Shown here in pieces: positions 12,357-30,363 of a stretch of 64,000 nt of DNA. How positions within the stretch are numbered: position 1 is the stretch's first letter; each line of letters opens with the position of its first letter. The DNA is from Thiosulfatihalobacter marinus (lineage in GTDB: Bacteria; Pseudomonadota; Alphaproteobacteria; Rhodobacterales; Rhodobacteraceae): positions 1 through 64,000 of the forward strand of contig NZ_JAECRZ010000009.1 of NCBI RefSeq assembly GCF_016019955.1, written 5' to 3'. Under the pieces are notes generated by a model, which saw only the letters and a program-made list of their open reading frames with translations, ran no database searches and had not been told where the DNA came from. The translations under genes and the position numbers were made by a program.

Positions 12357-12385
12357 GACTTCCGGAGAGACTTCCATAGACTTCC
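12357..12385 (+). promoter_or_regulatory. Triple GACTTCC repeat upstream of dndB
   Basis: GACTTCC occurs at 12357-12363, 12369-12375 and 12379-12385, about 20-50 bp before the dndB ATG. The first copy overlaps a possible -35 (TTGACT, 12355-12360), with a weak -10-like TAGACT 16 bp later. DndB is known to repress dnd promoters in other bacteria, so this is a candidate operator. The wider gap 12118-12405 shows no gene. Confidence 0.45.
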
Positions 12386-12405
12386 ACCCAGCAGTAGGGG
12401 GTCTA

Positions 12406-13512
12406 ATGAGCGGTAATTTCTATAATTTCGCAGCCATACGCGGCGTCCAAGCTGGAACCGAGTATTATGTGATCATGGTCCCGCTTAAGATGGTTCCAAA
12501 GATTTTCGAATTCGACAGTCAGGAATTGCCAGCGGACTTGCGCGCTCAACGCGTATTGTCAAACGTCCGCGTTCCGCAAATCGCATCCTACCTCTCGGAA
12601 AACTTCGAGGAATATACGCTCTCGTCTCTCTGCGCGTCCGTGGATGGTGATCTTGAGTTTTCCCCAGCCAGCGATGGTCTTCAGTTCCGTAATGTAGGCG
12701 AGCTACGGCTTTCAATGACAGCGCGCATCATTCTAAACGATGGACAGCATCGTCGCGCCGCAATCGAAGAAGCCCTCAAGACGCGACCCAAACTGGAAAA
12801 CGAAACCATCTCGGTTGTGCTTTTCGTGGATGAGGGGCTCGAGCGCTGCCAGCAAATGTTCGCGGACCTCAACAAGAATGCCGTACGTCCATCCGGGTCG
12901 TTGAACGTCCTCTATGACCGCAGAAATCCTTTGGCACGTCTGAGCACGCGCGTGCTAGAAGACATTCCGTTTTTCCAAGAATTCACCGAGCTCGAAAAGA
13001 CATCTCTGTCGAACCGAGCCAAAAACCTCTTTACCTTGTCCAGCCTGAATCAAGCCAACAAGTGGCTCGCAGGACATGACGCAAACCGGTTCGGTGAAAA
13101 CACTGAAAGCACCGTGATCGCATATTGGCGTCAGGTTGCTGAGGTCATCCCCGACTGGCAAAAACTGATGCGCGGCGCGACAACGGCGGGTGATTTGCGC
13201 AAAGAAACCGTTCATGCGCATGGCGTCATGTTACAGGCGTTTGGCGTCCTGGGGGCAAGACTGATTGCAGCAAAGCCGGATGGATGGGTGGAAAACCTGG
13301 CACCACTGGCGGAGATCAATTGGAGCAAGCGCAATGCACAACTCTGGCGTCCACGCGTCATGGGTTCGCGCGGCATGGATGGCAGTGTGAAATCCGTACA
13401 TCTGGCGGCCAACGTCCTAATTGGGGCTGTGGGCTTGCCGCTCAATGAAAAAGAACAAGCGAATGAAGACGACTACTTGGCGTCATTGACTGAAGAGAAG
13501 GTCGTCGCATGA
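12406..13512 (+). CDS. dndB: DNA phosphorothioation protein DndB
   Basis: A 368-aa protein of the DGQHR superfamily, with LNDGQHRRAAIEEAL at about residues 165-179 and the DndB-like N-terminus NFAAIRGVQAGTEYYVIMVP, then FADLNKNAVRPS. DndB is dispensable for sulfur transfer and acts as a repressor or modulator of dnd transcription. The start is set at 12406 (GGGGG 5 nt upstream); the frame is open further upstream to 12232, but that stretch holds promoter-like repeats. ATGA overlap with dndC. Confidence 0.88.
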   Translation: MSGNFYNFAAIRGVQAGTEYYVIMVPLKMVPKIFEFDSQELPADLRAQRVLSNVRVPQIASYLSENFEEYTLSSLCASVDGDLEFSPASDGLQFRNVGELRLSMTARIILNDGQHRRAAIEEALKTRPKLENETISVVLFVDEGLERCQQMFADLNKNAVRPSGSLNVLYDRRNPLARLSTRVLEDIPFFQEFTELEKTSLSNRAKNLFTLSSLNQANKWLAGHDANRFGENTESTVIAYWRQVAEVIPDWQKLMRGATTAGDLRKETVHAHGVMLQAFGVLGARLIAAKPDGWVENLAPLAEINWSKRNAQLWRPRVMGSRGMDGSVKSVHLAANVLIGAVGLPLNEKEQANEDDYLASLTEEKVVA

Positions 13513-14972
13513 CATCTAGTAAGGATACCGATCAAACAAAGAGGGCAGGGCTCGATCTTGTCGCTCTACAGGAACATATCCGCACCGTTTACGCGGCGGA
13601 CGACCGGCCTTGGGTGATCGGGTATAGCGGCGGAAAGGATTCAACCTGTGCCTTGCAGCTGATCTGGAGTGCCATTCGTGCACTTCCGGAAGATGCGCGG
13701 CGCAAACCGATTTTCGTCCTCAGTTCCGACACGCTTGTCGAAACGCCAGTGATCGTAAACTACATCGACGAGACCTTGGCTGCGATCAACGCGGCAGCGG
13801 CAGACCAGAACATGCCCATTACCGCACAAAAGGTGGTTCCGGAGATCTCAGACAGCTTCTGGGTGAACCTGATTGGTCGCGGATATCCTGCACCGTCAAA
13901 GCGCTTTCGCTGGTGCACGGAACGCTTGAAGATCGATCCGGCCAATGCTTTCATCAAGAACCGCGTTGCCGAGTATGGCGAGGTGGTCATGGTTCTGGGC
14001 GTCCGGTCCTCGGAAAGCGCGACGCGCGCGCAAGTGATGTCGCTGCACAAGATCGATGGGACGGCCTTGTCTCGCCATTCGACCTTGCCTGGGGCTTTCG
14101 TTTTCACGCCGATCGAGACCTTCAGTGTGGATGATGTTTGGGCTTTCTTGCTGCAAAACCAGTCACCTTGGGGATCAGACAACCGCGATTTGCTTGCGAT
14201 GTATAGAAACGCGCAAGCTGGCGAGTGCCCACTTGTGGTCGACAAGCAGACCGAAAGCTGTGGGAATTCCCGCTTTGGCTGCTGGGTGTGCACGGTTGTG
14301 ACAAAAGACAAGGCCATGGAGGCGCTTGTTGAGAATGGCGAGGAATGGCTTGAGCCTTTGCTTGATCTCCGTGACGAGCTGGCTGAAACACAAAACCCCG
14401 AGCGGAAGCGGGAGTTTCGGGATTTTCGCAGACGGGACGGCTCAGTCACCTTTGTGGGCGATGCAGAGACATCCATTCCGGGGCCCTATCTTTTCGAGTA
14501 CCGCAAAGAGCTCTTGAGAAAACTTTTGGAGGCGCAAGAGCAGGTAAATGCCAATGCGCCGCCCGGGGAGAAGACCGACCTTATTCAGGTCGAAGAACTG
14601 CGGGAGATCCGTCGGATCTGGCGGAGCGAACAGGGTGACTGGGGCGATGCTGTTTCAGAGACCCTCCAAGCTGTGACGGGCAAGGAACTCCCAGCCGATG
14701 CGACCGACGGATTTGAATTCCAAGCCGATGACGCCAAGGTCTTGGCGGATGTCTGCGCCGCGCATGATTTGCCGCCACGGCTCTTGGCCCAGCTTCTGGA
14801 GGCAGAGCGCTCTGTGCGGGGTCTGAAGCGCCGGACACTTATTCACCGAAAGATCGCTTCGATCCTTGAGCAAGAGTGGCGAGACGAAGCAATAGTCCTG
14901 GACGAACGCAAAGCGCGATTGAAAGAGCGTGAGGCATCTTCGTCTGACCCTCTGTTTGAGACTGAATCATGA
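13509..14972 (+). CDS. dndC: DndC, PAPS-reductase-like sulfurtransferase
   Basis: A 487-aa protein. The ATP-pyrophosphatase P-loop YSGGKDSTCALQL (about 36-48) and a PAPS-reductase core are followed by iron-sulfur cysteines: FRWCTERLK (about 135), ECPLVVDKQ and CGNSRFGCWVC (about 239-260). DndC activates the DNA backbone and passes sulfur from DndA using a 4Fe-4S cluster. The C-terminal ~150 residues are helical and charged. ATGA overlaps couple it to dndB and dndD. Confidence 0.93.
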   Translation: MTSSKDTDQTKRAGLDLVALQEHIRTVYAADDRPWVIGYSGGKDSTCALQLIWSAIRALPEDARRKPIFVLSSDTLVETPVIVNYIDETLAAINAAAADQNMPITAQKVVPEISDSFWVNLIGRGYPAPSKRFRWCTERLKIDPANAFIKNRVAEYGEVVMVLGVRSSESATRAQVMSLHKIDGTALSRHSTLPGAFVFTPIETFSVDDVWAFLLQNQSPWGSDNRDLLAMYRNAQAGECPLVVDKQTESCGNSRFGCWVCTVVTKDKAMEALVENGEEWLEPLLDLRDELAETQNPERKREFRDFRRRDGSVTFVGDAETSIPGPYLFEYRKELLRKLLEAQEQVNANAPPGEKTDLIQVEELREIRRIWRSEQGDWGDAVSETLQAVTGKELPADATDGFEFQADDAKVLADVCAAHDLPPRLLAQLLEAERSVRGLKRRTLIHRKIASILEQEWRDEAIVLDERKARLKEREASSSDPLFETES

Positions 14973-16921
14973 TCTTACAGTCTCTACGCCTCGTGAACTT
15001 TGGTCTTTATGGCGGTGAGCACCGTTTTGATCTTGCACCTGAGCCAGACGGGCAAAAACCTGTGGTCTTGGTTGTTGGCCATAATGGTGCCGGGAAGACA
15101 ACGTTCTTGGAGTCTGTCCGTTTGGCGCTCTACGGCAAACGCGCCCTCGGCGCGCGTGTTGGGCAGGCCGAATATGAGCGGCATCTCCTTAAACGGATCA
15201 ACAACTTCGCCAAGGACCGCAGAGCCTCCGTCGAACTGGCCTTCAAGAGCCAACACCTCGGCAATGAGGACCTCTACACCGTGCGGCGATCTTGGGCGGC
15301 CCGCGGTGCCAGCGTCATTGAAAGCCTTGAGTTTGAACGCAATGGCGCACCGGTGGAGGATATCCCAAGCGAGGATTGGAACCACTATCTCGAAGACATC
15401 ATTCCAGCTGGTGTGTCTCAGCTTTTCTTTTTCGATGGAGAAAAGATCCAAGACATTGCTGATGATCAGGAAAGCACTGGGCTGACAGATGCAATCAAAT
15501 CCTTGCTGGGGATCGATATTCTCGATCAGCTTCGGGGCGATCTCGCCCTTTACAAGTCACGCAGCATGGACCGGGACGGTTACACCGACTTAGAAGGTCT
15601 TCGGCGCGACCTAGAGATCGCAAAGTCTGATCTGGTCTTGGCTGAAGAGGAGATTGGATCGCTATCAGCAAAGCGCACCCAGCTTGCGCGGCGAAGCGAG
15701 GCGTCACAGAAAGTCTTTGAACAAGAGGGGGGAAGCATCGCGCTCAGCCGTGACACCCTATCAGAGGAGCTAAAGCGTGTCGAAGCGGATCTGACCAAGC
15801 AAACCAACGCGCTAAAGTCGCTTGTAAACGGCGTCGCGCCTTTTGCCCTGGCTCCAAAACTTCTCGAACGGTTCTCAGCAGACCTGGAGAAGGCGCGCGG
15901 GCAGCACAGCGCGACAGCAATCGAAGCCTTTGTCTCGAGTTTTCAGGCGGCCGTGGGCAACGACGACAAGACATGGACGAAGACGCATTTTGCGCAGCTC
16001 AAAGACTTCGCTCGGAACAGCCAAAGCACCGGGCCCAAAATGGCTCTGAGCACGGAACCGGACTGGGTCTTGGCCAAATTTTCTCAGGTTGCGGATGAAC
16101 GGGTGAAGGTGGCCACATTGGCTGCGCAACTGGCCGAGCTGCAAAAGCAACGCGCAACCTTGAAGGACCAGTTGAAGAACTTCCGTCCCGGTGCTGCCTC
16201 CGGTGCATTTGAGGAGTTGAAGAAAGCAGAGTTCGAACTCGGCGCCGTCGAAACAGAGCTCAATCGCAAGCAAGGCGAGGCGACCCAGGCACGTGCACTG
16301 ATCGAACGGCTGGAGCGCGAGTTACGTAAGTCCCAGGACGCCGTCTTCGCACTTGCAAGGGCCGAAGAGAAACGAGACCTGGCGACGCGAGCACAGGCCG
16401 CGCTCAACGAGTATGAGGAGCGGATTGTTCAAATGCGCCTCGCCTCGCTTTCCAAGCATTTCATCGAGGCATTCAGCGGCCTGGTTACGCGGAAGTCGCT
16501 CGTGCATGACGTCATCGTCGACCCCAACAGCTTTCAGCTCAAGCTTTTGGGCAAAGAAGGTAGAGAGATTACCCCATCCGAACTCTCCGCCGGCGAGCGG
16601 CAACTCTTTGCGATCTCGATGCTTTGGGCGCTTGGCCGAACAAGTGGGCGCGAATTGCCGATGATCATCGACACGCCGTTGTCACGTCTGGACCGGAAGC
16701 ACCGGACAAACTTGATGGCAAATTACGTGCCGCGCAGCTCGGCGCAGGTCGTCATGCTGTGCACCGACACCGAGTTGACCCCGGATTTGTCGAAAATCAT
16801 CAGCCCTTATGTGAGCCGACGTTTTGAGATTGGTGCTGTGGGTGGTGGACAACGCACGGAGATCACGGTGTTGAGAGCTGAAGCGGATGCACAGGTTCTG
16901 GAGACAACCGATGCACATTAA
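14969..16921 (+). CDS. dndD: DndD, SMC/Rad50-like ATPase
   Basis: A 650-aa protein with a split ABC ATPase. Walker A is GHNGAGKTTFLESV (about 33-46), a long coiled-coil spans about 190-470, and the C-terminal part holds the signature ELSAGERQLFAISMLW and Walker B LPMIIDTPLSRLD. No Cys zinc-hook is seen at the coil apex. In the Dnd complex it provides ATP-driven structural change or nicking to admit sulfur. It overlaps dndC (ATGA) and dndE (11 nt). Confidence 0.93.
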   Translation: MILQSLRLVNFGLYGGEHRFDLAPEPDGQKPVVLVVGHNGAGKTTFLESVRLALYGKRALGARVGQAEYERHLLKRINNFAKDRRASVELAFKSQHLGNEDLYTVRRSWAARGASVIESLEFERNGAPVEDIPSEDWNHYLEDIIPAGVSQLFFFDGEKIQDIADDQESTGLTDAIKSLLGIDILDQLRGDLALYKSRSMDRDGYTDLEGLRRDLEIAKSDLVLAEEEIGSLSAKRTQLARRSEASQKVFEQEGGSIALSRDTLSEELKRVEADLTKQTNALKSLVNGVAPFALAPKLLERFSADLEKARGQHSATAIEAFVSSFQAAVGNDDKTWTKTHFAQLKDFARNSQSTGPKMALSTEPDWVLAKFSQVADERVKVATLAAQLAELQKQRATLKDQLKNFRPGAASGAFEELKKAEFELGAVETELNRKQGEATQARALIERLERELRKSQDAVFALARAEEKRDLATRAQAALNEYEERIVQMRLASLSKHFIEAFSGLVTRKSLVHDVIVDPNSFQLKLLGKEGREITPSELSAGERQLFAISMLWALGRTSGRELPMIIDTPLSRLDRKHRTNLMANYVPRSSAQVVMLCTDTELTPDLSKIISPYVSRRFEIGAVGGGQRTEITVLRAEADAQVLETTDAH

Positions 16922-17285
16922 TAAGTTTCGGATCTCATCGACGGCGACCGGCCAGGTGCGGATCATTTCACAAAGATCAGGTCTGACACCCAACCTCGTT
17001 TGCCGCATGGCCATGTTGTCATCTTTTGAAGCCGGGCCCATATCCGGCGCCGCCGATGACGCTGGCGAGGGTCAAGAATTCAATGCCTATACGCTCTTTG
17101 GGGACTTCCAGCCTCTCTTCATCGACCTTCTGAAATACGTCGAGTTTGGAGCTGAGGAGATCGAAACCGACGACAGTGATTTGCTGGCGCGCTTGCGATT
17201 GCACATCGATCGCGGGGTGCGGCAACTCTCGGTCCGCCTCAAATCCCCGGCGGATGCGGCCGAGCTGATCGCGGGGAGTGCGTGA
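16911..17285 (+). CDS. dndE: DndE
   Basis: A 124-aa basic/acidic helical protein matching DndE: INKFRISSTATGQVRIISQR at the N-terminus, then GLTPNLVCRMAMLSSFE and a C-terminal HIDRGVRQLSVRLKSPADAAE. DndE binds nicked double-stranded DNA and completes the DndCDE complex. The start at ATG 16911 follows GGAGAC; upstream codons in the frame belong to the dndD tail. It lies 4 bp before the dndA start. Confidence 0.9.
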   Translation: MHINKFRISSTATGQVRIISQRSGLTPNLVCRMAMLSSFEAGPISGAADDAGEGQEFNAYTLFGDFQPLFIDLLKYVEFGAEEIETDDSDLLARLRLHIDRGVRQLSVRLKSPADAAELIAGSA

Positions 17286-17289
17286 AGCG

Positions 17290-18453
17290 ATGTCGGCACC
17301 GATTTATCTTGACCACAACGCTTCTACTCCGATTGATCCGGAGGTCTTGGAGACGGTCATACGTGTCAGTCGGGACGTATATGCGAACCCATCAAGTGTT
17401 GAGCATAGCCAAGGTTCAGCGGCAGCTCGGGTTGTCGAGACTGCGCGCGAGCAGATTGCGGGCCATCTCAATTGCAAGGAAACCGAGCTTGTCTTTACAG
17501 CCGGGTCCACGGAAGCCAACAATCTTGCGATCCTTGGAGCGTTCCCTCGGCTCAAAGAGGCAGGACGCACGCATCTGATCACCAGCAAGATCGAGCACCC
17601 ATCCGTTCTGGCCTGTTTCGACCATCTCGAAGCCCAAGGCGCGCGGGTAACGCGATTGGGGGTAGATGAAGGTGGCCAGATTTCCCTCGATGAGCTGGCC
17701 CTGTCTTTGACAGATGAGACCGGATTGGTGTCCATCATGGCTGCCAACAATGAGACGGGCGTTCTGCAACCCATCTTGGAGGCAGGCCAGCTTGCCGAAG
17801 AGGCTGGGGCGCTGTTTCACACGGACTTCTCGCAAGCTTCGGCTTTTGTGCCAGTTGATCTCAAGAACGTACCCATCCATCTGGCGAGTTTTTCCGGGCA
17901 CAAGGCCTATGGACCGAAAGGGGTAGGGGCCCTTTACCGGTCGATCCGAAAACCACGGGTGAACTTAGCGCCAGTGATGTTTGGTGGCGGGCAGGAAAAG
18001 GGTTTGAGGGCGGGGACCCTAAACACGCCTGGCATTGCGGGTATTGGACATGCATTTCAGCTCATCTCAAAAAACATAGACCATGACCGGGATCGGATTG
18101 GTGCCTTGCGAGACCAGCTTGAAAGGGAACTCAAAGAGACCTTAGCGGTGCAGGTCAATGGCAACACAGAGGCGCGGTTGCCAAACACGATGTCGCTCAC
18201 AATCGACGGCGTTGTACCACAAGCGCTGATGCAGAAGCTAAGAAACGACATCTGCTTCTCCGCATCGAGCGCCTGCGCCACAGAACATGTCGAAACCTCT
18301 CATGTTCTACTTACCATGTTCGGCGACACTCCTAGGGCGCGTAATGCTTTCCGACTAGGTTTAGGCCGGCAAACCAGCAAAAAAGACATATCCAAAGTCA
18401 TCAGACTCTTTTTACAGGCGTCATCAGAACTCCTGCTTTTAAAAACAGCTTAG
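17290..18453 (+). CDS. dndA: DndA, cysteine desulfurase
   Basis: A 387-aa class V aminotransferase of the IscS/NifS type. The PLP Schiff-base Lys lies in SFSGHKAYGPKG (Lys about 205), and the persulfide-forming Cys in SASSACATEH (Cys about 329). The N-terminus IYLDHNASTPIDPEV is typical. It supplies sulfur to DndC. In many dnd loci dndA is divergent from dndBCDE; here it is the fifth gene of the same operon. The GC-rich frame ends at 18453, and GC content falls in the genes beyond. Confidence 0.92.
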   Translation: MSAPIYLDHNASTPIDPEVLETVIRVSRDVYANPSSVEHSQGSAAARVVETAREQIAGHLNCKETELVFTAGSTEANNLAILGAFPRLKEAGRTHLITSKIEHPSVLACFDHLEAQGARVTRLGVDEGGQISLDELALSLTDETGLVSIMAANNETGVLQPILEAGQLAEEAGALFHTDFSQASAFVPVDLKNVPIHLASFSGHKAYGPKGVGALYRSIRKPRVNLAPVMFGGGQEKGLRAGTLNTPGIAGIGHAFQLISKNIDHDRDRIGALRDQLERELKETLAVQVNGNTEARLPNTMSLTIDGVVPQALMQKLRNDICFSASSACATEHVETSHVLLTMFGDTPRARNAFRLGLGRQTSKKDISKVIRLFLQASSELLLLKTA

Positions 18454-18519
18454 AAACCGGCCGATCCGCCACAATTTCGAGAGGTATAGGTAGGATAGCA
18501 ATAAAGGCTACGAACTTCC

Positions 18520-20493
18520 ATGGATGCTGAGCGAAAGCAGACTTACAAGACAGTCAAACAACTGCGCTCAGCACTTGCTGAGGGTGACAGTCAACGCTTC
18601 CAACGCACGTTGGCAACGCAACCGACACTTAGCCTCCTTAAGGCAATTCGCGAACAAAAACTGCTTGTTAAAAACTACGCAGCAGAACATGAACCTGTAG
18701 TCGAAATTGTAAGGACGGTGGCTTCCACAGTTCTCAGCCCGGAAGAACTCGCAGAGTACTCCAACTATTTGTCATTCATTGGGCCATGGCAAAAATCTAA
18801 GGAACACTCAGAGGCGCGGCTTAAAAGCTGCTTGAACAACTTTCCGAAGGTCTCGATCGAAGAACTTCTGCAAATATTCGACAAAGCACTAGACCGCTTT
18901 TTCTCTAAGCTCACTATCGGTGCTCCCAAAGAAGACCAAACCGTAGCGGATTACGAGAAGTGCATTCACGACCGGAACGGAATCGCAGATGACGTACTTT
19001 TCGCGGCACTCAGAGCACTCAACTACGCTTCTAGGAAAGTCGTCGACCCTAGCGCCCGGAAGCTCTCACCTAGTACGCGCTTGTCCTCAATACGACGGTT
19101 CTACAAGGCTATTCAACTCGCCTCTGAAGTGAATAGCTTGGATTGGGTTATGGACTCTGTTTCATATGGTGATCTTGTGGTTTCGAAGCTTCAGACAGGC
19201 TCACCAATAGAAGCACGCCTAGAATACGCCGATAAAAAGCGAAGCTTGATGCTGAACCTAGCTATTCGACGCAAGCTCATTGGCGTTATGCATCTACCGC
19301 GCAATGAGCGGTATGTGCGTGAAATGTTGAAGGCCTCCGAAACCTCGGTACTAACAGAAGCCTTAGAATTCTACGCTGGTTTTGTGGGCGAAAATCCTCG
19401 CCAGATCGACATGGAATCCCTGCTACGTCAAAGCTCTGCCAGACTTGCTCAAGTGGAAGCAGAAGATGATCTTCTGGTGGTTGCATCGGCACGCGCCAGA
19501 AAGCAGGATCATGCGACATACTACCTTACTTCAATGTGTCTGACTTGGTTTGGCATGGCGGCTGATGCCGTACAGAAGGCCTTTCCCAGATCTTTCCGTC
19601 GACGAACATCCGTTCCAATCCCCTCAAGTCTGATTGAGTCGGCTGTTTCGAGTGTTGGTGGAAAACAGGTAGCTGAAACTATCAAAGCGCTCTCAAGCAC
19701 TCTTCCTACAAAGAGCCACCACGACCTTGTACGTCGGCCATTCCTGAGCGTCTCAGAAGATGACACACTTTGGCTACTCAATGGAGATCCAGGATTATGG
19801 AATCTCAAGGTTAGAGAGGCATTGCTTTCGGGCGGAAAAGTTGGGGATGCCTATGGCCATGTTTGGGAGGAGTTCTTAGCAAAGTCGTTCGAAGACTCAG
19901 ATTGGCAGTTGATTGGTCGGAACAAGCGACTGCGCGTGGCAGGTCAGACTGCGACAGAGGTCGACCTCCTGCTAAAGAAGAATGACCTACTTCTTGTAGT
20001 TGAAGTAAAGGCACTGATCGGCTCCAATATAACTTGCTACGATCATTGGCGCAGCCGCCAAACAATCGAATGGGGCTGCCGTCAAGCGGCTGCCGCTGCT
20101 GAGTTCATAAAGTCCAACAAAAACTGGTTGGTCTCAGTTGCAGGAAAACAGTTGGCGGAGGAAGTCCATCATATTCAACCGCTAGTTCTCACCAATAACG
20201 ACTTACTTGATGGGTGGCAATTTGAGGGAGTACCAGTGATGGGCGAGGTCGGCCGCAAGGCAATCACGACTGGAGCAAAAGTCGACTACACGGATCAGAG
20301 TGGCCGTGTCGTTTCCACGCGTTGGATCACAAAAAAAGAAGAGCTGACGACCGATCGAATTCTGTGGTCGCTCCAGAATCCTGTTGAGCTATTGATTGCC
20401 CCCGAAAGCTTAGAGACCTCACATCGTGTGTTGAAATTGGGCGACTTCGCAGTGTTGACCCCGCAATTTGATCTTAGAGATGACCTAGATTAG
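18520..20493 (+). CDS. Unknown protein with C-terminal PD-(D/E)XK-like nuclease motif
   Basis: A 657-aa protein I cannot assign to a named family. The first ~430 residues are helical with no motif. From about 435 the sequence reads GDAYGHVWEEFLAKSF, then a beta-meander with EVDLLLKKND and LLVVEVKAL: Asp 482, Glu 495 and Lys 497 form a D-x12-E-x-K centre as in PD-(D/E)XK nucleases, with an upstream helix carrying Glu. It is 66 bp downstream of dndA on the same strand, so a role cutting unmodified or modified DNA in the phosphorothioate system is plausible but inferred. It has lower GC than the dndBCDEA genes. Confidence 0.7.
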   Translation: MDAERKQTYKTVKQLRSALAEGDSQRFQRTLATQPTLSLLKAIREQKLLVKNYAAEHEPVVEIVRTVASTVLSPEELAEYSNYLSFIGPWQKSKEHSEARLKSCLNNFPKVSIEELLQIFDKALDRFFSKLTIGAPKEDQTVADYEKCIHDRNGIADDVLFAALRALNYASRKVVDPSARKLSPSTRLSSIRRFYKAIQLASEVNSLDWVMDSVSYGDLVVSKLQTGSPIEARLEYADKKRSLMLNLAIRRKLIGVMHLPRNERYVREMLKASETSVLTEALEFYAGFVGENPRQIDMESLLRQSSARLAQVEAEDDLLVVASARARKQDHATYYLTSMCLTWFGMAADAVQKAFPRSFRRRTSVPIPSSLIESAVSSVGGKQVAETIKALSSTLPTKSHHDLVRRPFLSVSEDDTLWLLNGDPGLWNLKVREALLSGGKVGDAYGHVWEEFLAKSFEDSDWQLIGRNKRLRVAGQTATEVDLLLKKNDLLLVVEVKALIGSNITCYDHWRSRQTIEWGCRQAAAAAEFIKSNKNWLVSVAGKQLAEEVHHIQPLVLTNNDLLDGWQFEGVPVMGEVGRKAITTGAKVDYTDQSGRVVSTRWITKKEELTTDRILWSLQNPVELLIAPESLETSHRVLKLGDFAVLTPQFDLRDDLD

Positions 20494-20671
20494 AGCGTTC
20501 CGGCGATTGCAGCCAGCAGTTGAGAAGTGCGCGCAATGACTCAACCGGTACAAAAGAGCTCAGCGAACTGCGGAACAAGTGGCATTTGACCACCGCACTT
20601 GATAGATTGAACGAGCATCAAAGGGTATTTTACCTTGTTCTTAGTACGTTACTGGGGGGCAAGCAGGCAAC

Positions 20672-23600: not shown

Positions 23601-23683
23601 ACTTGTTTGCAAGTAAGGAGGAAGAGCCGGGCGAAGGTGAAGAAATGCTTGGGATGATACTTGGGGACTTTGGTATAAATTGA
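20672..23683 (+). CDS. Large protein with alpha-CTD-like HhH repeats and a sigma-region-4 HTH
   Basis: A 1003-aa protein. Three repeats at about 164-214, 243-295 and 347-395 end in helix-hairpin-helix motifs (LPNLGRKSADELD, LPGCGRKSIEQLD; the first, LENSGEKTATELD, is degenerate) like the RNA polymerase alpha C-terminal domain. At about 467-515 comes a sigma-70 region 4 block: DRQQDVLQRRYGINRG, then GVTRERIRQIEKKAKQKL. Beyond that are several winged-helix-like segments. No region 2 is present, so it is not a complete sigma factor. It overlaps the PLD-helicase start (TGATG). A DNA-sensing or transcription-linked role in the Dnd module is possible; no published system is asserted. Confidence 0.75.
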   Translation: MLSRLGKKLKALVSGETVKTVPKAPGAATRAQSPFAVSDAQHVSRNLLSEAKIGVIGAELGGDPEPAAVLVLESPSLTLDHVTELAVTPEAMDAGHIDSAEATSDDDLTVMKLGLALDEAHQGIPSKQQAADTSNSRLNQSARSASQNNPEEERLLDLAIQSFASTRLINVLRNAEGELPAKTVAAYMRAPDAAREAFRQLENSGEKTATELDDLVRKFARKLDQGRQTAADSIVDVVREADCSVRLLNAISAHSHRLPVATVREYMKAPEHARQAFLKLPNLGRKSADELDLIMRSFVPSKTDLQGDQKAVPSGEGDFQRALRAAEVFFSGMIYPDELFEWSPPTRLTNLLKIDQVEHRQSFVDFLKTYNETALRIRSLPGCGRKSIEQLDEIVTKMIEARLCFCGVRSEIAPDLRRLLQGEFVSHTSLTSIFELGNIKPEDIKASERASVEELTVTEIIEGCILTLNDRQQDVLQRRYGINRGQTETLEQVASDYGVTRERIRQIEKKAKQKLETKRTKKILIGALEQEGSLEKLFKNRKIVSDEQISAVSNLLTAQERLAVDLAFGDMRSFLDAESVRTEAGWIQEQDLLLMSHEPEDLSGSLRQRIVSAIREQKLPIRLSEIAAALPDYPLSEIMGELSARFEASIEGDFVRAASRLPSTVRCILILREAGHAMHCDEIRARMHEVFAKDESIHHIGSTLSGMEEALIVERGTYDLYENLSLTDGDLQEIRDRTLSHLESVGGFISAKVLFSDLFQGETERFGIAFGPYMLLGIVQDDDRFVTKRGLMIGVASDENKSEFRGLGEEVMSVLTEAQRSMTLVEIAQELEGRRDVLTTSISIGLENSPEAVSVGRGRFDLVGRAIGPDERQTDLILACAIALANGPRTAFALSELLSPVWGEIQTRPLLSFLKNRTIFDVDEKIVSVTELPEAVAKYVAIRDRVKEVAEMGVLDVEAVRDALVSRDAPDLTRLDHLFASKEEEPGEGEEMLGMILGDFGIN

Positions 23684-25767
23684 TGTCCTTTGAGACCCTG
23701 AAACTCCCTTTTTATGTCACCACAAGCGAGCATGAACCGGTGGCAGATTTTTTCGATCCGGTTCTCGAGCATGCGCAGAAATATGACATTGCTGTCGGAT
23801 ACTTTAGCAGTGCGTGGATGCGTGATGCAGCCCATGGCATGGCAACTTTTGCACTCAACGGTGGCAAAGCGAGGTGGGTGATTTCACCCGAAATGTCTTT
23901 GGAAGACTTCAAGAGCCTACAGGTTGAAGGTCAGTTTTCAGATGAGCGTATCCGAGAACTCATTTCTCGGTCATATGAAGACCTCTACGGGCACCTTTCG
24001 CAGCATACGCGTGAGGCACTCGGATGGCTACTTCATGATGGGGTGTTGACCTTCAAAGTAGGCATTCCGAAGAATAGGCTGTCCGGAATTCTGCATGCGA
24101 AACAGGGCATCTTCACGGATGAGTTTGGAAACCGGGTCGGCTTCCAGGGATCTTATAATTTGACCGGTGGAGCCGGCACCAATTGGGAAGCTTTCAGCGT
24201 CTTTTGTGATTGGAAGTCAAGCGAGAGCCAGGAGCGGAACAACCACATCGCTGCGTCCTTCGACAGAATGTGGAGAGGACTGGATCCAAACCTAGCACTG
24301 TTTGACCCTTCTTCAGCAGATCTTGAGCGGTTTGTCAGCGCGGCCAGGGATAGCTCCCGACACTACGATTTGTTCCCGCCAGAAAAATCAAGCTGTCCTC
24401 GTGTGCCAGCACACTTCCTCACCGACGGGCGTCTACGGGACTACCAAGAAGAGGGAATCCGCAAATGGTTCAAGAACAATGGCCGCGGAATCCTCCACAT
24501 GGCAACGGGAACCGGCAAGACCGTGACTGCGTTAACTGCTGTGACGCGGCTGAACGATTTTGTCGCTCAAAAGAACGGCCAGCTTTGCATCGTAGTTACG
24601 GTTCCGTATCAACATCTCGCAGAACAGTGGGCCCGGGAAGCCGAAGAGTTCGGCTTCGAACCCATTTTGTGCTACGGAGGCGTCAATCGCTGGATGGAGG
24701 AGTGCCAGAGGCGCCTGAATGAACTGCGATCAAAGGCAACGCAGCACGTGATGCTCATCGCGGTCAATGCGTCTATGGCAGATAAACCGTTCCAGTCGGT
24801 CTTGAACTCCTTTGATGGGAACATCCTATTTGTTGGCGATGAGGCGCATAACTTGGGCGCGCCGTCCAACCTACAGGCCCTCCCGGAGCGCGCAGCGTTT
24901 AGACTTGGACTGACGGCGACACCTGATCGCTACGGGGATGAGGAAGGCACCGAGGGTCTCAAAAGGTATTTCGGAGAGATCGTTTTGGACTACGGTTTAG
25001 ACAAGGCGATCAGCGGCGGTCACCTTTGCCGATATCTTTATTATCCGATCCTCGTGCACTTAGACGAAGACGAACAAGACGAGTATGCAGAGCTCTCCGT
25101 ACGGATCGGTAGGCTTTTTGGCCAAGCAGCCAAGCCGGATAGCGACAAAGGCGAACAGCTAAACCGTTTGTTGATCAAACGGGCACGCCTGATCGGAAAA
25201 GCGCGAAACAAGCTGCCGGAGCTGATCAAGCTACTCAAGCAGCAGGGAGAGGTCTCTCATACTCTGATATATTGCGGCGACAGCAAGGAAGATGGGCAGC
25301 GATACATCGACACAGCACTTGCTAGGGTAGGCGGCGAGCTCGGACTAAGAGCGAGCCCGTTCACTTCGGAAGAGAACAACGACGAAAGGTCGATATTATT
25401 GAAGCAGTTCGCGGCCGGTGACATACAGGCGCTGCTGGCCATCCGATGCCTAGATGAAGGTGTTGATGTACCGATGACACGGACTGCGTACATCTTGGCT
25501 TCATCTGCAAACCCAAAGGAATTTGTCCAACGACGGGGTCGGGTACTACGGCGGTCTGAAGGGAAGACCCGTGCTTACATCTACGACTTTATCGTTGTGC
25601 CAGATTTGGAAAAATTGTCAGATCAGGCTCCATCCAACGTGGAGCGATCTCTGATGAAACGTGAACTGGTGAGGTTCAATGAATTTGCTACCCTTGCAGA
25701 AAACCATGGTGAAGCGCTATCTACGATCACAGAAATTAAGAAGTACCTTAACCTCCTTGACCATTAG
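23683..25767 (+). CDS. PLD-domain SF2 helicase, probable Dnd-associated restriction enzyme
   Basis: A 694-aa protein. An N-terminal phospholipase-D-like domain has HAKQGIFTDEFG and GFQGSYNLTGG (about 138-165), one HKD half-site. A superfamily-2 helicase follows: motif I MATGTGKTVTA (about 272), DEAH (about 386), TATP, and motif VI QRRGRVLRR (about 610). Families of this type are annotated as DNA phosphorothioation system restriction enzymes. A PLD nuclease driven by a helicase fits cleavage of unmodified DNA. It is placed between the HhH/sigma-like protein and the SMC ATPase. Confidence 0.8.
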   Translation: MSFETLKLPFYVTTSEHEPVADFFDPVLEHAQKYDIAVGYFSSAWMRDAAHGMATFALNGGKARWVISPEMSLEDFKSLQVEGQFSDERIRELISRSYEDLYGHLSQHTREALGWLLHDGVLTFKVGIPKNRLSGILHAKQGIFTDEFGNRVGFQGSYNLTGGAGTNWEAFSVFCDWKSSESQERNNHIAASFDRMWRGLDPNLALFDPSSADLERFVSAARDSSRHYDLFPPEKSSCPRVPAHFLTDGRLRDYQEEGIRKWFKNNGRGILHMATGTGKTVTALTAVTRLNDFVAQKNGQLCIVVTVPYQHLAEQWAREAEEFGFEPILCYGGVNRWMEECQRRLNELRSKATQHVMLIAVNASMADKPFQSVLNSFDGNILFVGDEAHNLGAPSNLQALPERAAFRLGLTATPDRYGDEEGTEGLKRYFGEIVLDYGLDKAISGGHLCRYLYYPILVHLDEDEQDEYAELSVRIGRLFGQAAKPDSDKGEQLNRLLIKRARLIGKARNKLPELIKLLKQQGEVSHTLIYCGDSKEDGQRYIDTALARVGGELGLRASPFTSEENNDERSILLKQFAAGDIQALLAIRCLDEGVDVPMTRTAYILASSANPKEFVQRRGRVLRRSEGKTRAYIYDFIVVPDLEKLSDQAPSNVERSLMKRELVRFNEFATLAENHGEALSTITEIKKYLNLLDH

Positions 25768-25805
25768 CGCGTGTGATCCAGAAGCTTCTAGAAAAGGCAT
25801 TACGA

Positions 25806-25997
25806 ATGAGCGAGCACAACAAGTCTCCAAAACAAGTTCTTGAAGCTGCATCTCCGAAAGCTCGAAAAGTCGTCAATGAGATCCTATCCATTGAACATGA
25901 ATATCAGAGTTATCGAAACCTTGGTGCCGTCGGCAGTGTTGAGAAAGAGATTGCCGCGCGGATCAAGCAACTCATCGAGCGTGAGGTAAAACGGTGA
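25806..25997 (+). CDS. Small helical protein in the Dnd-associated module, 63 aa
   Basis: A 63-residue charged helical protein (MSEHNKSPKQVLEAASPKAR... ending IEREVKR). It sits in the 226-bp gap between the helicase and the SMC-like ATPase and overlaps the latter by 4 nt (GTGA). The frame extends to a GTG at 25773 without a ribosome site; AAAGG lies before ATG 25806. Its size and coupling suggest a partner subunit of the ATPase. No family is recognised. Confidence 0.6.
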   Translation: MSEHNKSPKQVLEAASPKARKVVNEILSIEHEYQSYRNLGAVGSVEKEIAARIKQLIEREVKR

Positions 25998-28045
25998 GAA
26001 TACTACGTCTAAAAATAAGGAACTTCCGCCAGTTTTATGGTGAGTGTGAATTAGAATTCCTCTCTGACGATACATCGAGAATTACAGTCATTCATGGCGA
26101 AAACGGGTCTGGTAAAACCTCGCTTTTGAACGCCTTCAAATGGGTTCTATACGGCAAGACAGATTTTGATACTGGCGAGCAAACAATCCTCAACGAACTT
26201 GCTTTGTCTGAAATCTCTCCTGGAGCGGTGACTGAGCTCAGCCTAGAACTTGAGTTTGAGCATGAAGGCTCCACCTACACTGTGCACCGAAAGCAGGAAT
26301 TCAAGCGTACAGGAGAAGCGCTGGAAGCCGAACCAATTGGAAAGTCTGTTCCAACCCTGTCCTGGATCGATGATCGGGGCAAATACGAAACGGCAAAGAA
26401 TCCTGCCAACCGGATCAATCAATTGATACCTGAGCAGATGCACTCGTACTTCTTCTTCAACGGCGAGCGCATCGAAAAACTGGCTAACGTGTCTGCTTCT
26501 GGCGAAATCCGAGATGCTATCAAGACCTTGATGGGCTTAGAAATCATAGACCGGGCAAGCGATCATCTTGGTCGTTTGGTGATCAAGGATCTTCGGAAGG
26601 AAGCAAGTGAAACGGCTTCAGCTGACTACCGCGATCTCCTCGAAAAAGAGTCTCGGATCAACTCAGAGATAGATCAACGGAAACAAGAACGGGACACGGC
26701 GTCGAAATCCAGCAAGGGTTTCCAAACAGAATTAGACGCCATCAATGCATCTTACGAGAAGATTGCCGATGTAAAGGCAAAGGCTGAGCAAAGACGAAGT
26801 CTGGAGGCCGAGAGAGGTACAATCGAAGGCGAACTCGAGAAGCTCAGCCAAGAGAGAATGGAGCTGGTCTCGCAGACGGGTGCACTGGCTTTTCTAAGCG
26901 ATACAGTGGCGTCTGTCTCCAATGTTCTTGAAGACTGTCGCAAAAGGGGTGAGTTACCTTACAAGATCAGGCGGACGTTCATAGACGACTTGCTACACGA
27001 TGCGAAGTGCATTTGTGGAACTCAACTAGCAGAGGGCACGCAAGCAAGAGCAGCGATCGAAGGCTATCGTGACCAAGCTACTGGAGAGGATCTTGAGGCC
27101 GCTTTCACAGATGTCGTTAGCAACCTAAGAGCAATGCCTCGTGAGAGGACTAGGCTGTATGCACAGTTATCAACTTGGTCATCAAAAGAGAGCGACTACA
27201 ACAAGCGTTTAAAAGCGATCACTGAAGAGCTAGACGAAATCAGCAGCAGCTTGGGGTCTTCTGACATAGAAGATGTCAAACGACTGGAAGAGCGCCGGAA
27301 CGAGCTGACAAAACTTCAAGCCGACGAACGTCTTAAAATCGCCAAAGCAAAAGATTCGATCGAACTGCTGAACGACGACCTGGCCAAAGTTAAAAAAGAG
27401 ATCGAGAAGGTCCAATCCAAATCTCAAAAGGAGGACTTGGCAAGACAGAAGCTTGAGTTTGCCGAAGCTTGTAAGAGTCTGGTAGACAACCTGCATGAGG
27501 CCCTGGCTGAAGAGACACGCCATCACTTGTCTTCCAAGGTAAATGACACCTTCCAGAGCATCCTTCGCAAAGACTTCTATGCAGAGATTGATCGAGACTA
27601 CACCCTAAGAATCTTCAAAGACGTCCCGGGGGTAGGAAAGCAACCCGTATCTGAGAAGTCGACGGGCGAAAACCAAGTCATCAGCCTGAGTTTCATCGCA
27701 AGTTTGGTTAATCTCGCGAAGGAACGCAACAAAGCAAAAACAACCTTTTTCAAGGGCGGTGTTTATCCTTTGATCATGGACTCACCGTTTGGCGCTTTGG
27801 ATCGCGAATACCGTGAGAAAATTGCGCAGCACATTCCTGATCTCGCAGACCAAGTGATTGTTTTTGCTTCTAACTCTCAATGGAGCAAGGAAGTCGATGA
27901 CAAGTGTCGTCCGTTTATCGGAAAAGAGTATAGCTTGGTCTACCACGCTCCAAAGTCTAAAGGGCGCGAAGAAGACACCGACTACGTAAAACGTACAGAT
28001 GGTCCTGAGTTCACAAAAATTGAGGAGGGCTATCTTGGCCACTAG
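25994..28045 (+). CDS. Second DndD-like SMC/RecN-type ATPase
   Basis: A 683-aa protein. Walker A is HGENGSGKTSLLNAF (about 34-48). FFFNGERIEKLANV resembles the FFFDGEKIQ block of the DndD at 14969. A coiled-coil spans about 185-480, with a small Cys pair KCICGTQL near the middle that could be half a zinc hook. The C-terminus carries STGENQVISLSFIASL and Walker B PLIMDSPFGALDREY. It differs strongly from the local DndD. The start is GTG inside the 63-aa gene; the stop overlaps the next gene. It probably powers the restriction part rather than sulfur insertion. Confidence 0.8.
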   Translation: MRILRLKIRNFRQFYGECELEFLSDDTSRITVIHGENGSGKTSLLNAFKWVLYGKTDFDTGEQTILNELALSEISPGAVTELSLELEFEHEGSTYTVHRKQEFKRTGEALEAEPIGKSVPTLSWIDDRGKYETAKNPANRINQLIPEQMHSYFFFNGERIEKLANVSASGEIRDAIKTLMGLEIIDRASDHLGRLVIKDLRKEASETASADYRDLLEKESRINSEIDQRKQERDTASKSSKGFQTELDAINASYEKIADVKAKAEQRRSLEAERGTIEGELEKLSQERMELVSQTGALAFLSDTVASVSNVLEDCRKRGELPYKIRRTFIDDLLHDAKCICGTQLAEGTQARAAIEGYRDQATGEDLEAAFTDVVSNLRAMPRERTRLYAQLSTWSSKESDYNKRLKAITEELDEISSSLGSSDIEDVKRLEERRNELTKLQADERLKIAKAKDSIELLNDDLAKVKKEIEKVQSKSQKEDLARQKLEFAEACKSLVDNLHEALAEETRHHLSSKVNDTFQSILRKDFYAEIDRDYTLRIFKDVPGVGKQPVSEKSTGENQVISLSFIASLVNLAKERNKAKTTFFKGGVYPLIMDSPFGALDREYREKIAQHIPDLADQVIVFASNSQWSKEVDDKCRPFIGKEYSLVYHAPKSKGREEDTDYVKRTDGPEFTKIEEGYLGH

Positions 28046-28466
28046 AGTAAGACGCCCCGCCGAGTTCGAAGAAATGCTCAGTGAGCTACGAGACGAAGGC
28101 ATTTTCCCAACCTTCAAGGATGTCCTTGTCTTCGCGGCTGCTTTGGGGTTCCGGCGCGGAAATCGGAAGCCATTCCAGAAGAGCTCAGAGCCCATCGATC
28201 TCGAAGTGTTTAGAGGTGACTTTGATCGAACCATCATGAGCATGATTGCAATCGAGGAAAACAGCGATCCAAAGATGCTGGCTCCTTCGAACGAAGCCGA
28301 GCGTGTCTTGTGTTTTGAAGAGTATGCTAATGGCGGCCTTGAGATCATGAAAAGGGAGATCTCGGACGGCAAACAAGACTGGCGGGAAGGTCTGCTTTCC
28401 CTGATTCACAGAGAAGAGGGCGATCAGACGATACTTGACGACATTACAGAGTTGGCGAATTTTTGA
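28035..28466 (+). CDS. DNA phosphorothioation-associated protein 4-like
   Basis: A 143-aa protein with RRPAEFEEMLSELRDEGIF, FAAALGFRRG and FEEYANGGLEIMKREI, which I recognise as the Dnd-associated protein 4 type. The start is TTG at 28035, overlapping the ATPase stop by 11 nt, with GGAGG 7 nt upstream. It is the fifth gene after dndA in the same direction. Function unknown; the family is linked to dnd loci. A 125-bp gap follows before the next coupled pair. Confidence 0.7.
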   Translation: MATRVRRPAEFEEMLSELRDEGIFPTFKDVLVFAAALGFRRGNRKPFQKSSEPIDLEVFRGDFDRTIMSMIAIEENSDPKMLAPSNEAERVLCFEEYANGGLEIMKREISDGKQDWREGLLSLIHREEGDQTILDDITELANF

Positions 28467-28591
28467 ACAAGGCTGCACGGCACTCAGGTCGAGCATGCGT
28501 CGATATTGGTGTCGATGCCACAGTTCGATGAAGCATTCGTATCGTTTAGCAGTTTCATCCCGAGCCGCATCAATCAGCGAGGGGAAGCCCT

Positions 28592-29134
28592 TTGAGTAGC
28601 AAAGACACGAACCCTAAACAACTGGGTGATTGGCAGTACCTAGGTCGCGAGATCTGGCGCCGCACTTGGCAACCGTTCAAGAACGTACCCTTTGTGTTTT
28701 ACGTCATTCTGGCGATCATATGTTTAGGTGGCCTCGGCATCTGGGTAGAAATTATCAAGGGCCAGCTTGGACAATCGGCGGATGACTCAGGATTGCTCAC
28801 AGCGTTATCCACGTTCTTCCCGGCTTTGATCGGTTCAGCATCGCTCCAACTCATTTTGAGCTCAACCGGTAATTCAGACAAGGTTCTGGTCTCATTTTCT
28901 TTACTTGCCTGCTTTGTTTCGTTTTTTGGCGTGGTTCTGATAACGATATTTTACCCGGTTCATCCTGCCTGGTCCCTCGGAGCTGCGGTCTGGTTTGGAA
29001 TCTTTGCAGTGTGGTTTTGGTGGTTCACAAACGGTGACGAACTAACCTATCAAAACGCCCCCATCGACGCCGCTTCAGGTGGCAGCACAACCAGAGCGGT
29101 GAAGGGAAACCTGAGCGAATTCAAGGTAGACTAA
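28592..29134 (+). CDS. Small multi-spanning membrane protein
   Basis: A 180-aa protein with about four hydrophobic segments: FVFYVILAIICLGGLGIWV (about 35-53), ALSTFFPALIGSASLQLIL, SFSLLACFVSFFGVVLITIF and SLGAAVWFGIFAVWFWWF. Both ends are soluble. The start is TTG with GAGGGG upstream; ATG is absent. Its stop overlaps the start of the DGQHR protein (TAATG), so the two are translated together. A membrane-perturbing or anchoring effector is one reading; nothing in the sequence proves it. Confidence 0.65.
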   Translation: MSSKDTNPKQLGDWQYLGREIWRRTWQPFKNVPFVFYVILAIICLGGLGIWVEIIKGQLGQSADDSGLLTALSTFFPALIGSASLQLILSSTGNSDKVLVSFSLLACFVSFFGVVLITIFYPVHPAWSLGAAVWFGIFAVWFWWFTNGDELTYQNAPIDAASGGSTTRAVKGNLSEFKVD

Positions 29135-30363
29135 TGGATATTCAATTCCCTTTTACAGTTCCTGCATTGCGGGTCGACCAGCGTCTGGGTAGCTTTTATG
29201 TTGCGGTACTCCCAGCTGAAATGTTGCTTCGTGTCTGCGCAAGCGACAGAATGAGCGCATCTCTTAATCCAGACGGAGTGGGTTATTCGCTTGAAGGCAC
29301 ACAACGGGTGATACAAGATAAACGCCTGTCCGAAATCGCTTCTTATATTAACCGTGTAGATTCAGCCTTTCCAAACTCAATCATAGTTGCTGCTAACTAT
29401 GATCGTGAGACCGGATTCGATCAAACCGAGAATGAAGACATCGCGGAGGAGGAAGGCGAAGAGTCCAAAGATGTCTCTAGCGCATGGACCGTTCAGGTAT
29501 CTGATGACGGTTGTCACAAGCTAACTATCCCATCGGACGCAAAGCTTGCAGCGGTGATTGATGGTCAACACAGGTTGTTTTCTTTTGCAAAAGCTAATCC
29601 GGAAGCTCTGCGGAGCATGAACCTGATTTGTTCCATCTTCATTGACCTGCCCAAAGCTCTGCAAGCCCAAATCTTTGCAACCATTAACTCCACGCAAAAA
29701 CGGGTAGACCGCAGTCTGACGTTTGAACTGTTCGGGTATAACGTTTCTGACGAACCAGAGGAGTATTGGACGCCAGACAAGTTGGCCGTCTTTTTTGCTC
29801 GAAAGTTGGCAACAGACACAGACTCACCCTTGCGAGGCCGCATCATGGTCGCGCCGAAGCGGGACTCGAGATTGGAGAAGATCGCCGCTGAAGCCACATG
29901 GCGAATTTCGACTGCCGTTGCAGTTGACGGAATTATGAGGCTCTATTCGAGCAATCCGAAGCGAGACGCCAATCTGATGCGAGAAGGCGACGCCCATACC
30001 AGAAATGTTCTATTGCAAGGCCCAAAGGACAAATCTCCCCTGAGAAGCGCTTACATCGAAGGTAACGACGCAGTGATCTTCAAGATGGTTCTAAACTATC
30101 TAAAAGCGGCAGACAGAGTTTTTTGGGAAGACGCGAATGAGGGCTCGTACATTTTTCGAACCGTAGGTGTGCAAGCCATTTTCGACATTCTACGAAAGCT
30201 AGCATCGGATGCGTTTGAGAATAGGGACATAAGCTCTGGTTACTTTGAAGAAATTCTGAGCCCGGCCAAAAAGATCGATTTCTCCTCAACTGAATTCCAA
30301 AATGCCTCAGGTTCTGGCAGGACCTTCATACGTAAAGAAATTGAGAAGGTTATAGGAATTTGA
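29134..30363 (+). CDS. DGQHR-domain protein (DndB-like paralogue)
   Basis: A 409-aa protein. The DGQHR core is AAVIDGQHRLFSFAKA (about 142-157), followed by IFATINSTQKRVDRSL (about 188-203), the counterpart of FADLNKNAVRPS in the local DndB. It is therefore a second, diverged DGQHR protein in the locus. The N-terminal half has an acidic insert (EEEGEESKD). It is coupled to the membrane protein. DGQHR proteins outside dnd often accompany defence genes; whether this one senses DNA or regulates its partner is unknown. Confidence 0.8.
   Translation: MDIQFPFTVPALRVDQRLGSFYVAVLPAEMLLRVCASDRMSASLNPDGVGYSLEGTQRVIQDKRLSEIASYINRVDSAFPNSIIVAANYDRETGFDQTENEDIAEEEGEESKDVSSAWTVQVSDDGCHKLTIPSDAKLAAVIDGQHRLFSFAKANPEALRSMNLICSIFIDLPKALQAQIFATINSTQKRVDRSLTFELFGYNVSDEPEEYWTPDKLAVFFARKLATDTDSPLRGRIMVAPKRDSRLEKIAAEATWRISTAVAVDGIMRLYSSNPKRDANLMREGDAHTRNVLLQGPKDKSPLRSAYIEGNDAVIFKMVLNYLKAADRVFWEDANEGSYIFRTVGVQAIFDILRKLASDAFENRDISSGYFEEILSPAKKIDFSSTEFQNASGSGRTFIRKEIEKVIGI

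Follow-up and report, generated by a model that had tools for sequence, protein, structure and literature searches.

Modification of DNA with phosphorothioates by the Dnd proteins has, in many bacteria, a known partner in the DndFGH (DptFGH) restriction module. A different arrangement was described by Xiong et al. (2019, PMC6459918), in which PbeABCD together with DndCDEA protects a haloarchaeon against the virus SNJ1; in the survey published there, 42.1% of 553 PbeAC were located near dndCD. The way in which Pbe blocks virus replication is disputed, one group reporting no cleavage and the other arguing for it (PMC6459918, PMC10853773), and PbeABCD was reinterpreted as a CxC ABC-ATPase system by Rakesh et al. 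(2024, PMC10853773). The families TIGR04172, TIGR04062 and TIGR04095 were described as dnd-dependent in 2011 (the ProPhylo paper, PMC3226654). The present study concerns a dnd island of Thiosulfatihalobacter marinus, found in the first 64,000 nucleotides of contig NZ_JAECRZ010000009.1; this whole stretch is called the window below, and coordinates refer to it. The new feature here, as judged from the sequence, is a 1003-amino-acid (aa) gene, ORF1003, which overlaps pbeA and is predicted to encode alpha-CTD-like repeats (after the C-terminal domain of the RNA polymerase alpha subunit), sigma-70 region 4 and winged helices. No paper pairing phosphorothioation with a sigma-factor-like protein was found in the available texts, though this fifth gene may yet appear in other published material.

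A PbeABCD operon with a fifth gene

On the plus strand between 12406 and 30363, dndB-C-D-E-A is followed by eight further genes, all of them open reading frames (ORFs), in the order 657-aa protein, 1003-aa protein, PLD-helicase, 63-aa protein, second DndD-like ATPase, Dnd-associated protein 4, membrane protein and DGQHR protein. The original prediction, made from the sequence of the window, had named these genes at the right place and strand and with the right identities, but counted seven, its "membrane protein/DGQHR pair" being two genes. The sigma-4 gene was among those it listed, with no special weight placed on it. Profile searches confirm the gene identities, except for the 63-aa and membrane proteins, which had no profile match, and the 657-aa protein, which had none over cut-off. 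The operon of main interest comprises:

20672..23683, plus strand: ORF1003, 1003 aa, fifth gene of the pbe operon (Pfam, internal repeats, model, neighbourhood survey, tree)
23683..25767, plus strand: pbeA, HKD (PLD-type) nuclease fused to a superfamily 2 (SF2) helicase (TIGR04095 646.9 bits, cut-off 600; PADLOC PbeA 1.6e-233)
25806..25997, plus strand: pbeB, 63 aa, ORF open from 25773 (position, size, 92-94% identity to two relatives)
25994..28045, plus strand: pbeC, DndD-like ABC ATPase with the CxC motif C339-I-C341 (PADLOC PbeC 6.5e-274)
27999..28466, plus strand: pbeD, Dnd-associated protein 4 (TIGR04062 166.3 bits, cut-off 74.25)

PbeA keeps its motifs (H139xK141, Walker A GTGKT and DEAH), and PbeB, without a profile match of its own in Pfam, NCBIfam and PADLOC searches, is assigned by its place between pbeA and pbeC. 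The stop codon of ORF1003 overlaps the start codon of pbeA (stop at 23683, pbeA ATG at 23683). By its predicted products the core of the downstream genes is the published PbeABCD module, and thus not new.

This modifies the earlier claim of an alternative, non-DptFGH partner set. The set is indeed not DptFGH; it is not new either, its core being PbeABCD and its DGQHR protein belonging to TIGR04172. Profiles of DptF, DptG and DptH (TIGR03238, TIGR03237 and TIGR03236) gave 0 matches in the genome assembly containing the window (4.16 Mb, 66 contigs, 99.8% complete), neither among the downstream genes nor in the rest of the assembly. As a positive control, all three profiles matched their genes in the Aliivibrio plasmid NZ_LR721753.

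Domain architecture of the fifth protein

ORF1003 carries, in this order, alpha-CTD-like helix-hairpin-helix repeats (residues ~165-220, 244-300 and 346-400), sigma-70 region 4 (465-515) and winged helices (~600-930). Region 4 was matched by Pfam at 1.3e-14 (53.9 bits, cut-off 24.1) and is found in 21 of 22 family proteins (13/14 aligned and 8/8 further ones, at E up to 0.5 and 0.3); the protein missed, L129 (surveyed loci bear L numbers), is cut by a contig end ahead of that region. At the same permissive limits alpha-CTD was detected in 15 of the 22 (9/14 aligned, 6/8 further), exceeding the Pfam cut-off in 9 of the 18 with known scores, and it always precedes region 4 where both occur. When the three repeat copies of ORF1003 are aligned with one another, they score far higher than shuffled sequence does (z 26, 8.4 and 8.1). 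HARE-HTH was matched in 6 of 14 proteins at E up to 0.5, below its cut-off where scores are known. Family proteins are 437 to 1160 aa long, and several of them carry the NCBI annotation "sigma factor-like helix-turn-helix DNA-binding protein".

None of 18 family proteins has a match to sigma region 2 or 3, region 2 being unmatched in the window protein at E 0.5 and in 17 relatives (E 0.3 for 10 of them, E 0.05 for 7). A full sigma factor was considered as the identity of ORF1003 and was rejected, since regions 2 and 3 were not found.

Solved SigA proteins have the same recognition helix as ORF1003, VTRERIRQIE. Nearly invariant positions of the 14-row alignment are R501, E502, R503, R505, Q506, E508 and R246, the last of which aligns with the arginine of the (S/T)VR motif in solved alpha-CTDs. 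We take these residues of the recognition helix and R246 to be those contacting the -35 element and the UP element. In the AlphaFold model, the predicted local distance difference test (pLDDT) of the winged-helix half reaches 80-88 in the best stretches (~611-670 and 871-940), with 43-71 between them. Weaker matches of the model in PDB include SigA domain 4 (0.8 A over 41 columns, E 1.8), the winged helices of SelB, and Rok; the structure matches also include phage G1 ORF67 in its solved complex with SigA domain 4.

Distribution and linkage of the fifth gene

Region-4 and whole-protein profiles seeded on six members (window and L002-L006) matched 23 proteins in the surveyed loci, of which 22 lie on the same strand as a pbe operon and at most 442 bp from it, 20 of these 22 being within 55 bp of the operon or overlapping it. 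With the seed loci excluded, 16 of 17 matches adjoin a pbe operon; the window aside, region-4-bearing proteins abut pbe operons in 21 loci from four phyla. The hosts belong to Pseudomonadota, Actinomycetota, Bacillota and Campylobacterota. The single non-adjacent match, kept in the counts, is an MzaA-like protein of L136 with sigma regions 2 and 4, encoded 6.6 kb from pbeA. No match was found in twelve non-Pbe helicase loci (L085-L096). The gene is located before pbeA in most clades and after pbeD in others.

Adequate flank, defined as at least 2.5 kb upstream and at least 1.5 kb downstream of the Pbe locus, was available for 68 Pbe loci. The fifth gene is present in 18 of them, and in 12 of the 62 that were not fetched through it; four further rows with the fifth gene, L028, L059, L068 and L129, were left out of both sets for short flank. 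With flanks of at most ~10-18 kb, dndC counts are lower bounds, and dndC was found near pbe in at least 34 of the 68 loci (L127 and L130 counted via the adjoining L128 and L131). None of five archaeal Pbe loci (3 with adequate flank) has the fifth gene, a small number; this absence would be expected if the gene reads bacterial promoters.

These figures describe a sample. The genome scan covered the best 80 of 193 relatives, and 12 of these 80 (L085-L096) are other helicases without pbeC. From 160 plasmid records matching PbeA, seven chosen by eye were added to those already included, and nine of 20 records matching ORF1003 and nine of 25 matching the DGQHR protein (the rest mostly weaker matches) were examined. 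Some rows are near copies, for example L082 and L143 with identical PbeA.

A tree of PbeA was built by a quick method (LG+G4) from 81 rows, 70 of them labelled (22 with and 48 without the fifth gene). The fifth-gene label needs 8 changes on it, whereas 60 shuffles needed 18.9 on average and never fewer than 14. The gene stays within PbeA clades and recurs in several of them, the change count reading the same for gain and for loss.

The fifth gene can accompany Pbe without phosphorothioate genes: L006 (7796-14798) has PbeABCD, an alpha-CTD/sigma-4 gene and a DNA methyltransferase, with no dnd in the examined stretch. Elsewhere PbeABCD stands beside genes of the SspABCD type, the single-strand phosphorothioate writer, and not Dnd, as in L010 (3208-14306), L136 (2455-12811) and L009 (9385-20350); the Ssp genes are backed by PADLOC in L010 (A-D) and L136 (B-D), and by annotation only in L009.

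Conservation of the island and evolutionary rates

In Ruegeria sp. THAF33, 12 of the 13 island genes are kept in the same order, and 10 of 13 in Pontibrevibacter, which also has the membrane/DGQHR pair, inverted. Because the order recurs in these two relatives, the gene set is not a chance assembly. Ratios of nonsynonymous to synonymous substitution rates (dN/dS), computed between the window, Ruegeria THAF33 and Pontibrevibacter, are well below 1 in every pairwise comparison with estimable dS (range 0.015-0.44), a pattern of purifying selection on all the compared genes.

With dN/dS of 0.14-0.18 (dS 0.96-1.28), the fifth gene is the least constrained among the dnd and pbe genes. The values are 0.015-0.044 for pbeA, pbeC and pbeD (dS 0.50-1.23), 0.03-0.07 for pbeB and 0.02-0.12 for the dnd genes, so that the fifth gene changes several times faster than pbeA-D at overlapping dS. 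The first 150 residues are the least conserved part of its protein. One comparison of the membrane-protein gene gives a yet higher value (dN/dS 0.44).

Modification genes and upstream repeats

The full set of dnd modification genes is present with intact frames, preceded by short direct repeats:

12355..12386, plus strand: direct repeats, GACTTCC x3, directly before dndB, operator-like (three-plasmid alignment)
12406..13512, plus strand: dndB (TIGR03233 408.6 bits, cut-off 328; PADLOC DndB 2.5e-135)
13509..14972, plus strand: dndC, sulfurtransferase (PADLOC DndC 1.1e-202)
14969..16921, plus strand: dndD, ABC ATPase (TIGR03185 444.9 bits, cut-off 245.85)
16887..17285, plus strand: dndE (PADLOC DndE 2.1e-63)
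17278..18453, plus strand: dndA, cysteine desulfurase (PADLOC DndA 1.4e-130)

The dndB frame is open from 12232, and the start shared with two relatives is the ATG at 12406. The 18-base core of the repeats occurs once in the window against 0.03 expected, and the GACTTCC repeats are conserved in Pontibrevibacter and Ruegeria, although the Ruegeria DNA farther upstream differs. They are possibly a DndB operator unlike the Salmonella palindrome, which is absent before dndB at up to 1 mismatch and whose matches in the window are at chance level. Self-regulation of dnd loci via DndB is known (PMC4507180).

Accessory genes and genomic setting

Three genes of the island fall outside the dnd set and the pbe operon:

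18520..20493, plus strand: ORF657, 657 aa, with a C-terminal PD-(D/E)XK-like motif, E480-V-D482 ... E495-V-K497 (motif)
28592..29134, plus strand: membrane protein, 180 aa, partner of the DGQHR gene (hydropathy, family alignment)
29134..30363, plus strand: DGQHR_dnd_1, DndB-like, 409 aa (TIGR04172 541.2 bits, cut-off 450)

The membrane protein has no Pfam match; a simple hydropathy scan gives two hydrophobic segments in the window protein and up to four in relatives. The DGQHR1 gene has dndC nearby in all 13 loci where it was found (window, L002, L003, L004, L007, L008, L014, L028, where dndC is cut at the edge, L029, L075, L146, L147 and L148), a count biased by the six of these loci that were fetched through the membrane/DGQHR pair. 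A small membrane-protein gene precedes it in 11 of the 13 (recognised by its profile in ten and only by hydropathy in L148), L028 and L029 being the exceptions. Beside it are PbeABCD or at least pbeA and pbeC in the window, L002-L004, L028, L029 and L075, FtsK-type genes in L007, L008 and L014, annotated DptFGH in L146 and DptF/DptG in L147. The pair goes with dnd whatever the restriction module. Its inversion and low identity in Pontibrevibacter, beside Pbe genes that are 92-98% identical, mark it as an exchanged cassette. The membrane protein and its DndB-like partner could form a backup killing device. A search of viral contigs with the DGQHR protein gave no confirmed match.

Two side observations concern this pair. 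In L148 (11983-13140, E. coli), DGQHR1 is split in two frames and follows a four-segment membrane protein, next to dndB-C-D. Near the pair in L007, L008 and L014 are Dnd variants consisting of dndC, a small protein, a DndD-like ATPase and an FtsK-type translocase, with TusA also present in those of L007 and L014.

ORF657 has matches within residues 443-533, all below cut-off: NERD at 0.0034 (18.3 against 22.1 bits) and a YraN-type match at 2.1e-4 (far below). Searches for relatives in 385 genomes of the class and in 394 of the family, two sets with members in common, returned no protein but ORF657 itself. There was no match in 72,556 plasmid records, and a pattern search of viral contigs found none either. 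Its AlphaFold model, built from one sequence, has a mean pLDDT of 34.7 and was not used as evidence. The gene ahead of the sigma-4 gene is of the RelA/SpoT type in two Rhizobium plasmids. The position of ORF657 is read as an exchangeable accessory slot and the protein as a putative nuclease-like passenger.

The surroundings of the island are as follows:

7790..10129, plus strand: relaxase, left neighbour, of the conjugation module (Pfam Relaxase 4.7e-13)
10126..12117, plus strand: conjugative coupling protein, left border of the cargo (Pfam T4SS-DNA_transf 9e-86)
30568..31647, minus strand: TrbL/VirB6, right border of the cargo (Pfam TrbL 7.1e-36)
After TrbL up to 36783, minus strand: further VirB-type genes (Pfam T2SSE, TrbI, CagX, VirB8, T4SS)

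Conjugation genes flank the island, and plasmid unnamed4 of Pontibrevibacter nitratireducens has the same island at the same site, with the coupling protein on one side and the secretion genes on the other. The island is therefore most likely carried as cargo by a conjugative element, whose mobilisation genes and type IV secretion genes lie on either side of it. The G+C content of the island is ~48-57%; that of the flanks is mostly 60-65%, dipping to 50-57% near both window ends. A promoter and terminator scan found sites no more numerous than in shuffled sequence.

Possible function and alternative explanations

The island may be a phosphorothioate-based antiviral locus of the Dnd and PbeABCD kind, in which the fifth gene would bring PbeABCD to promoter DNA; we put the chances of this proposal at about even. 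Antiviral activity would follow by analogy with the haloarchaeal work, and both promoter binding by ORF1003 and its contact with PbeABCD are predictions from sequence. DndA-E would place phosphorothioates in host DNA, and PbeC and PbeD (a DndD/DndE-like pair), together with PbeA (the HKD nuclease-helicase) and PbeB, would act on unmarked DNA. ORF1003 would be the DNA-reading subunit taking PbeABCD to promoter DNA (UP element and -35), and incoming DNA would be inspected at the sites that the host polymerase has to use. The membrane/DGQHR pair would be a second, dnd-linked accessory. More tentatively, the fifth subunit may, in many bacterial PbeABCD systems, imitate the promoter-reading face of the RNA polymerase holoenzyme (alpha-CTD and sigma region 4), and would either aim the system at the promoters of unmarked DNA or sense phage proteins seizing these two polymerase parts.

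Several observations weigh against promoter targeting by the fifth protein. The alpha-CTD of the window protein scores 14.1 bits, below the Pfam cut-off of 23.8, so the call in ORF1003 rests on its relatives and its internal repeats, and one repeat alone, compared with solved structures, finds alpha-CTD at E 0.4, behind two unrelated proteins. Region 4 of L027 is below its cut-off, and L028 has no alpha-CTD match. The model of ORF1003 (9 rows) has a mean pLDDT of 55.5, is weak outside parts of the winged-helix half and has no PDB match at E 0.001. Outside the clade of the window, the family is only ~16-28% identical to the window protein; with identity between clades so low, the whole architecture may go back to a single ancestor or to repeated fusion. 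The fifth gene is missing from 50 of the 62 Pbe loci not fetched through it, and the haloarchaeal Pbe described in PMC6459918 works without it, so that it is not essential to Pbe as such. Nor is it strictly tied to phosphorothioate, dndC being found in 12 of 18 loci with the gene and in 22 of 50 without it.

Promoter binding could also serve plain gene regulation, and the alpha-CTD/sigma-4 protein might then simply regulate transcription, either of the pbe operon or of genes of the host, with no defence role itself. Both of its recognised parts are promoter-binding modules, the 178-bp gap upstream of ORF1003 could hold a promoter, and the dnd loci regulated through DndB (PMC4507180) offer a precedent. 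Yet the length of the family proteins and their row of DNA-binding domains are, from general knowledge, unusual for a one-operon repressor, the gene follows pbeD instead of preceding pbeA in some clades, and its rate of change is several times that of the genes under its supposed control; such a regulator is judged rather unlikely. A bolder alternative than promoter targeting makes ORF1003 a decoy or guard, copying the polymerase parts attacked by phage takeover proteins and triggering PbeABCD upon attack. Phages are known to target both sigma region 4 and alpha-CTD (T4 AsiA and T4 ADP-ribosyltransferases), which counts for the decoy, as do the phage G1 ORF67 complex among the structure matches and the faster evolution of the gene compared with its neighbours within an antiviral-type operon. 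However, the most conserved parts of the protein include the DNA-contacting helix, for which a decoy would have no need; the winged helices favour DNA reading, and no trigger is known. We regard the decoy as quite improbable.

The same strand and close spacing would also suit a whole eight-gene tail acting as one restriction unit, with ORF657 as nuclease and the membrane protein as suicide part, but this has very little probability. The place of ORF657 in the two closest relatives is held by an opposite-strand gene unmatched by its profile; the membrane/DGQHR pair is inverted in Pontibrevibacter, where its membrane protein is 28% and its DGQHR protein 48% identical to those of the window against 92-98% for the Pbe genes; and the pair occurs elsewhere with DptF/G(/H) or FtsK-type partners. 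With parts exchanged or differently partnered in relatives, the new seven-gene restriction module proposed as one unit in the original prediction was rejected. That prediction had also named, as a point that would count against it, an occurrence of the downstream genes mostly away from dnd, and on this the genes divide: Pbe is often away from dnd, as the dndC count of 34 in 68 loci indicates, and DGQHR1 lay near it in each of the 13 loci where it was found, several of them fetched through this gene. For this reason the tail is better described as a stack of separately moving parts. Given this independent movement of the modules next to dnd, it would be wrong to take a dnd locus for a single fixed machine.

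Returning to promoter targeting, a fifth protein made from the promoter-binding parts of RNA polymerase would give a testable handle on where Pbe acts and what it senses. If true, the proposal would tie recognition of foreign DNA in phosphorothioate defence to transcription, and would help to explain how Pbe stops replication without visible cutting.

Comparison with known systems

In contrast to the many bacteria whose dnd modification is partnered by DndFGH/DptFGH, the genome containing the window has no match to that module. The closest described system is DndCDEA-PbeABCD (PMC6459918, PMC10853773), with which the island shares the pbeA-B-C-D order beside dnd, a PLD/HKD nuclease-helicase PbeA, a CxC ATPase, a small PbeB, and PbeD. 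It differs in having dndB, which the haloarchaeal dnd clusters do not have, and, as far as the available text of these papers describes the known system, in adding the alpha-CTD/sigma-4/winged-helix gene, a relative-less nuclease-like gene and the membrane/DGQHR pair. The DGQHR protein exceeds the cut-off of TIGR04172, and its spread beside dnd with or without DptFGH fits the 2011 text (PMC3226654); the available part of that text does not mention the paired membrane-protein gene, present in 11 of 13 loci in this analysis.

Other sigma-70 proteins are also encoded beside defence genes. In the plasmid loci L152 (6921-11593) and L153 (7164-14194), sigma-70 factors with regions 2, 3 and 4 stand directly before DEAD-type helicases; that of L152 also has a DpnI-type helix-turn-helix, and that of L153 lies beside annotated Vsr and cytosine methyltransferase genes. 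Region 4 is common to these proteins, MzaA and the Pbe-linked family (MzaA 9.3e-12 over residues 449-530 of the window protein). Whereas the proteins of L136, L152 and L153 carry region 2, and two of them region 3, the Pbe-linked proteins examined for them are without these regions, and 15 of the 22 have alpha-CTD instead.

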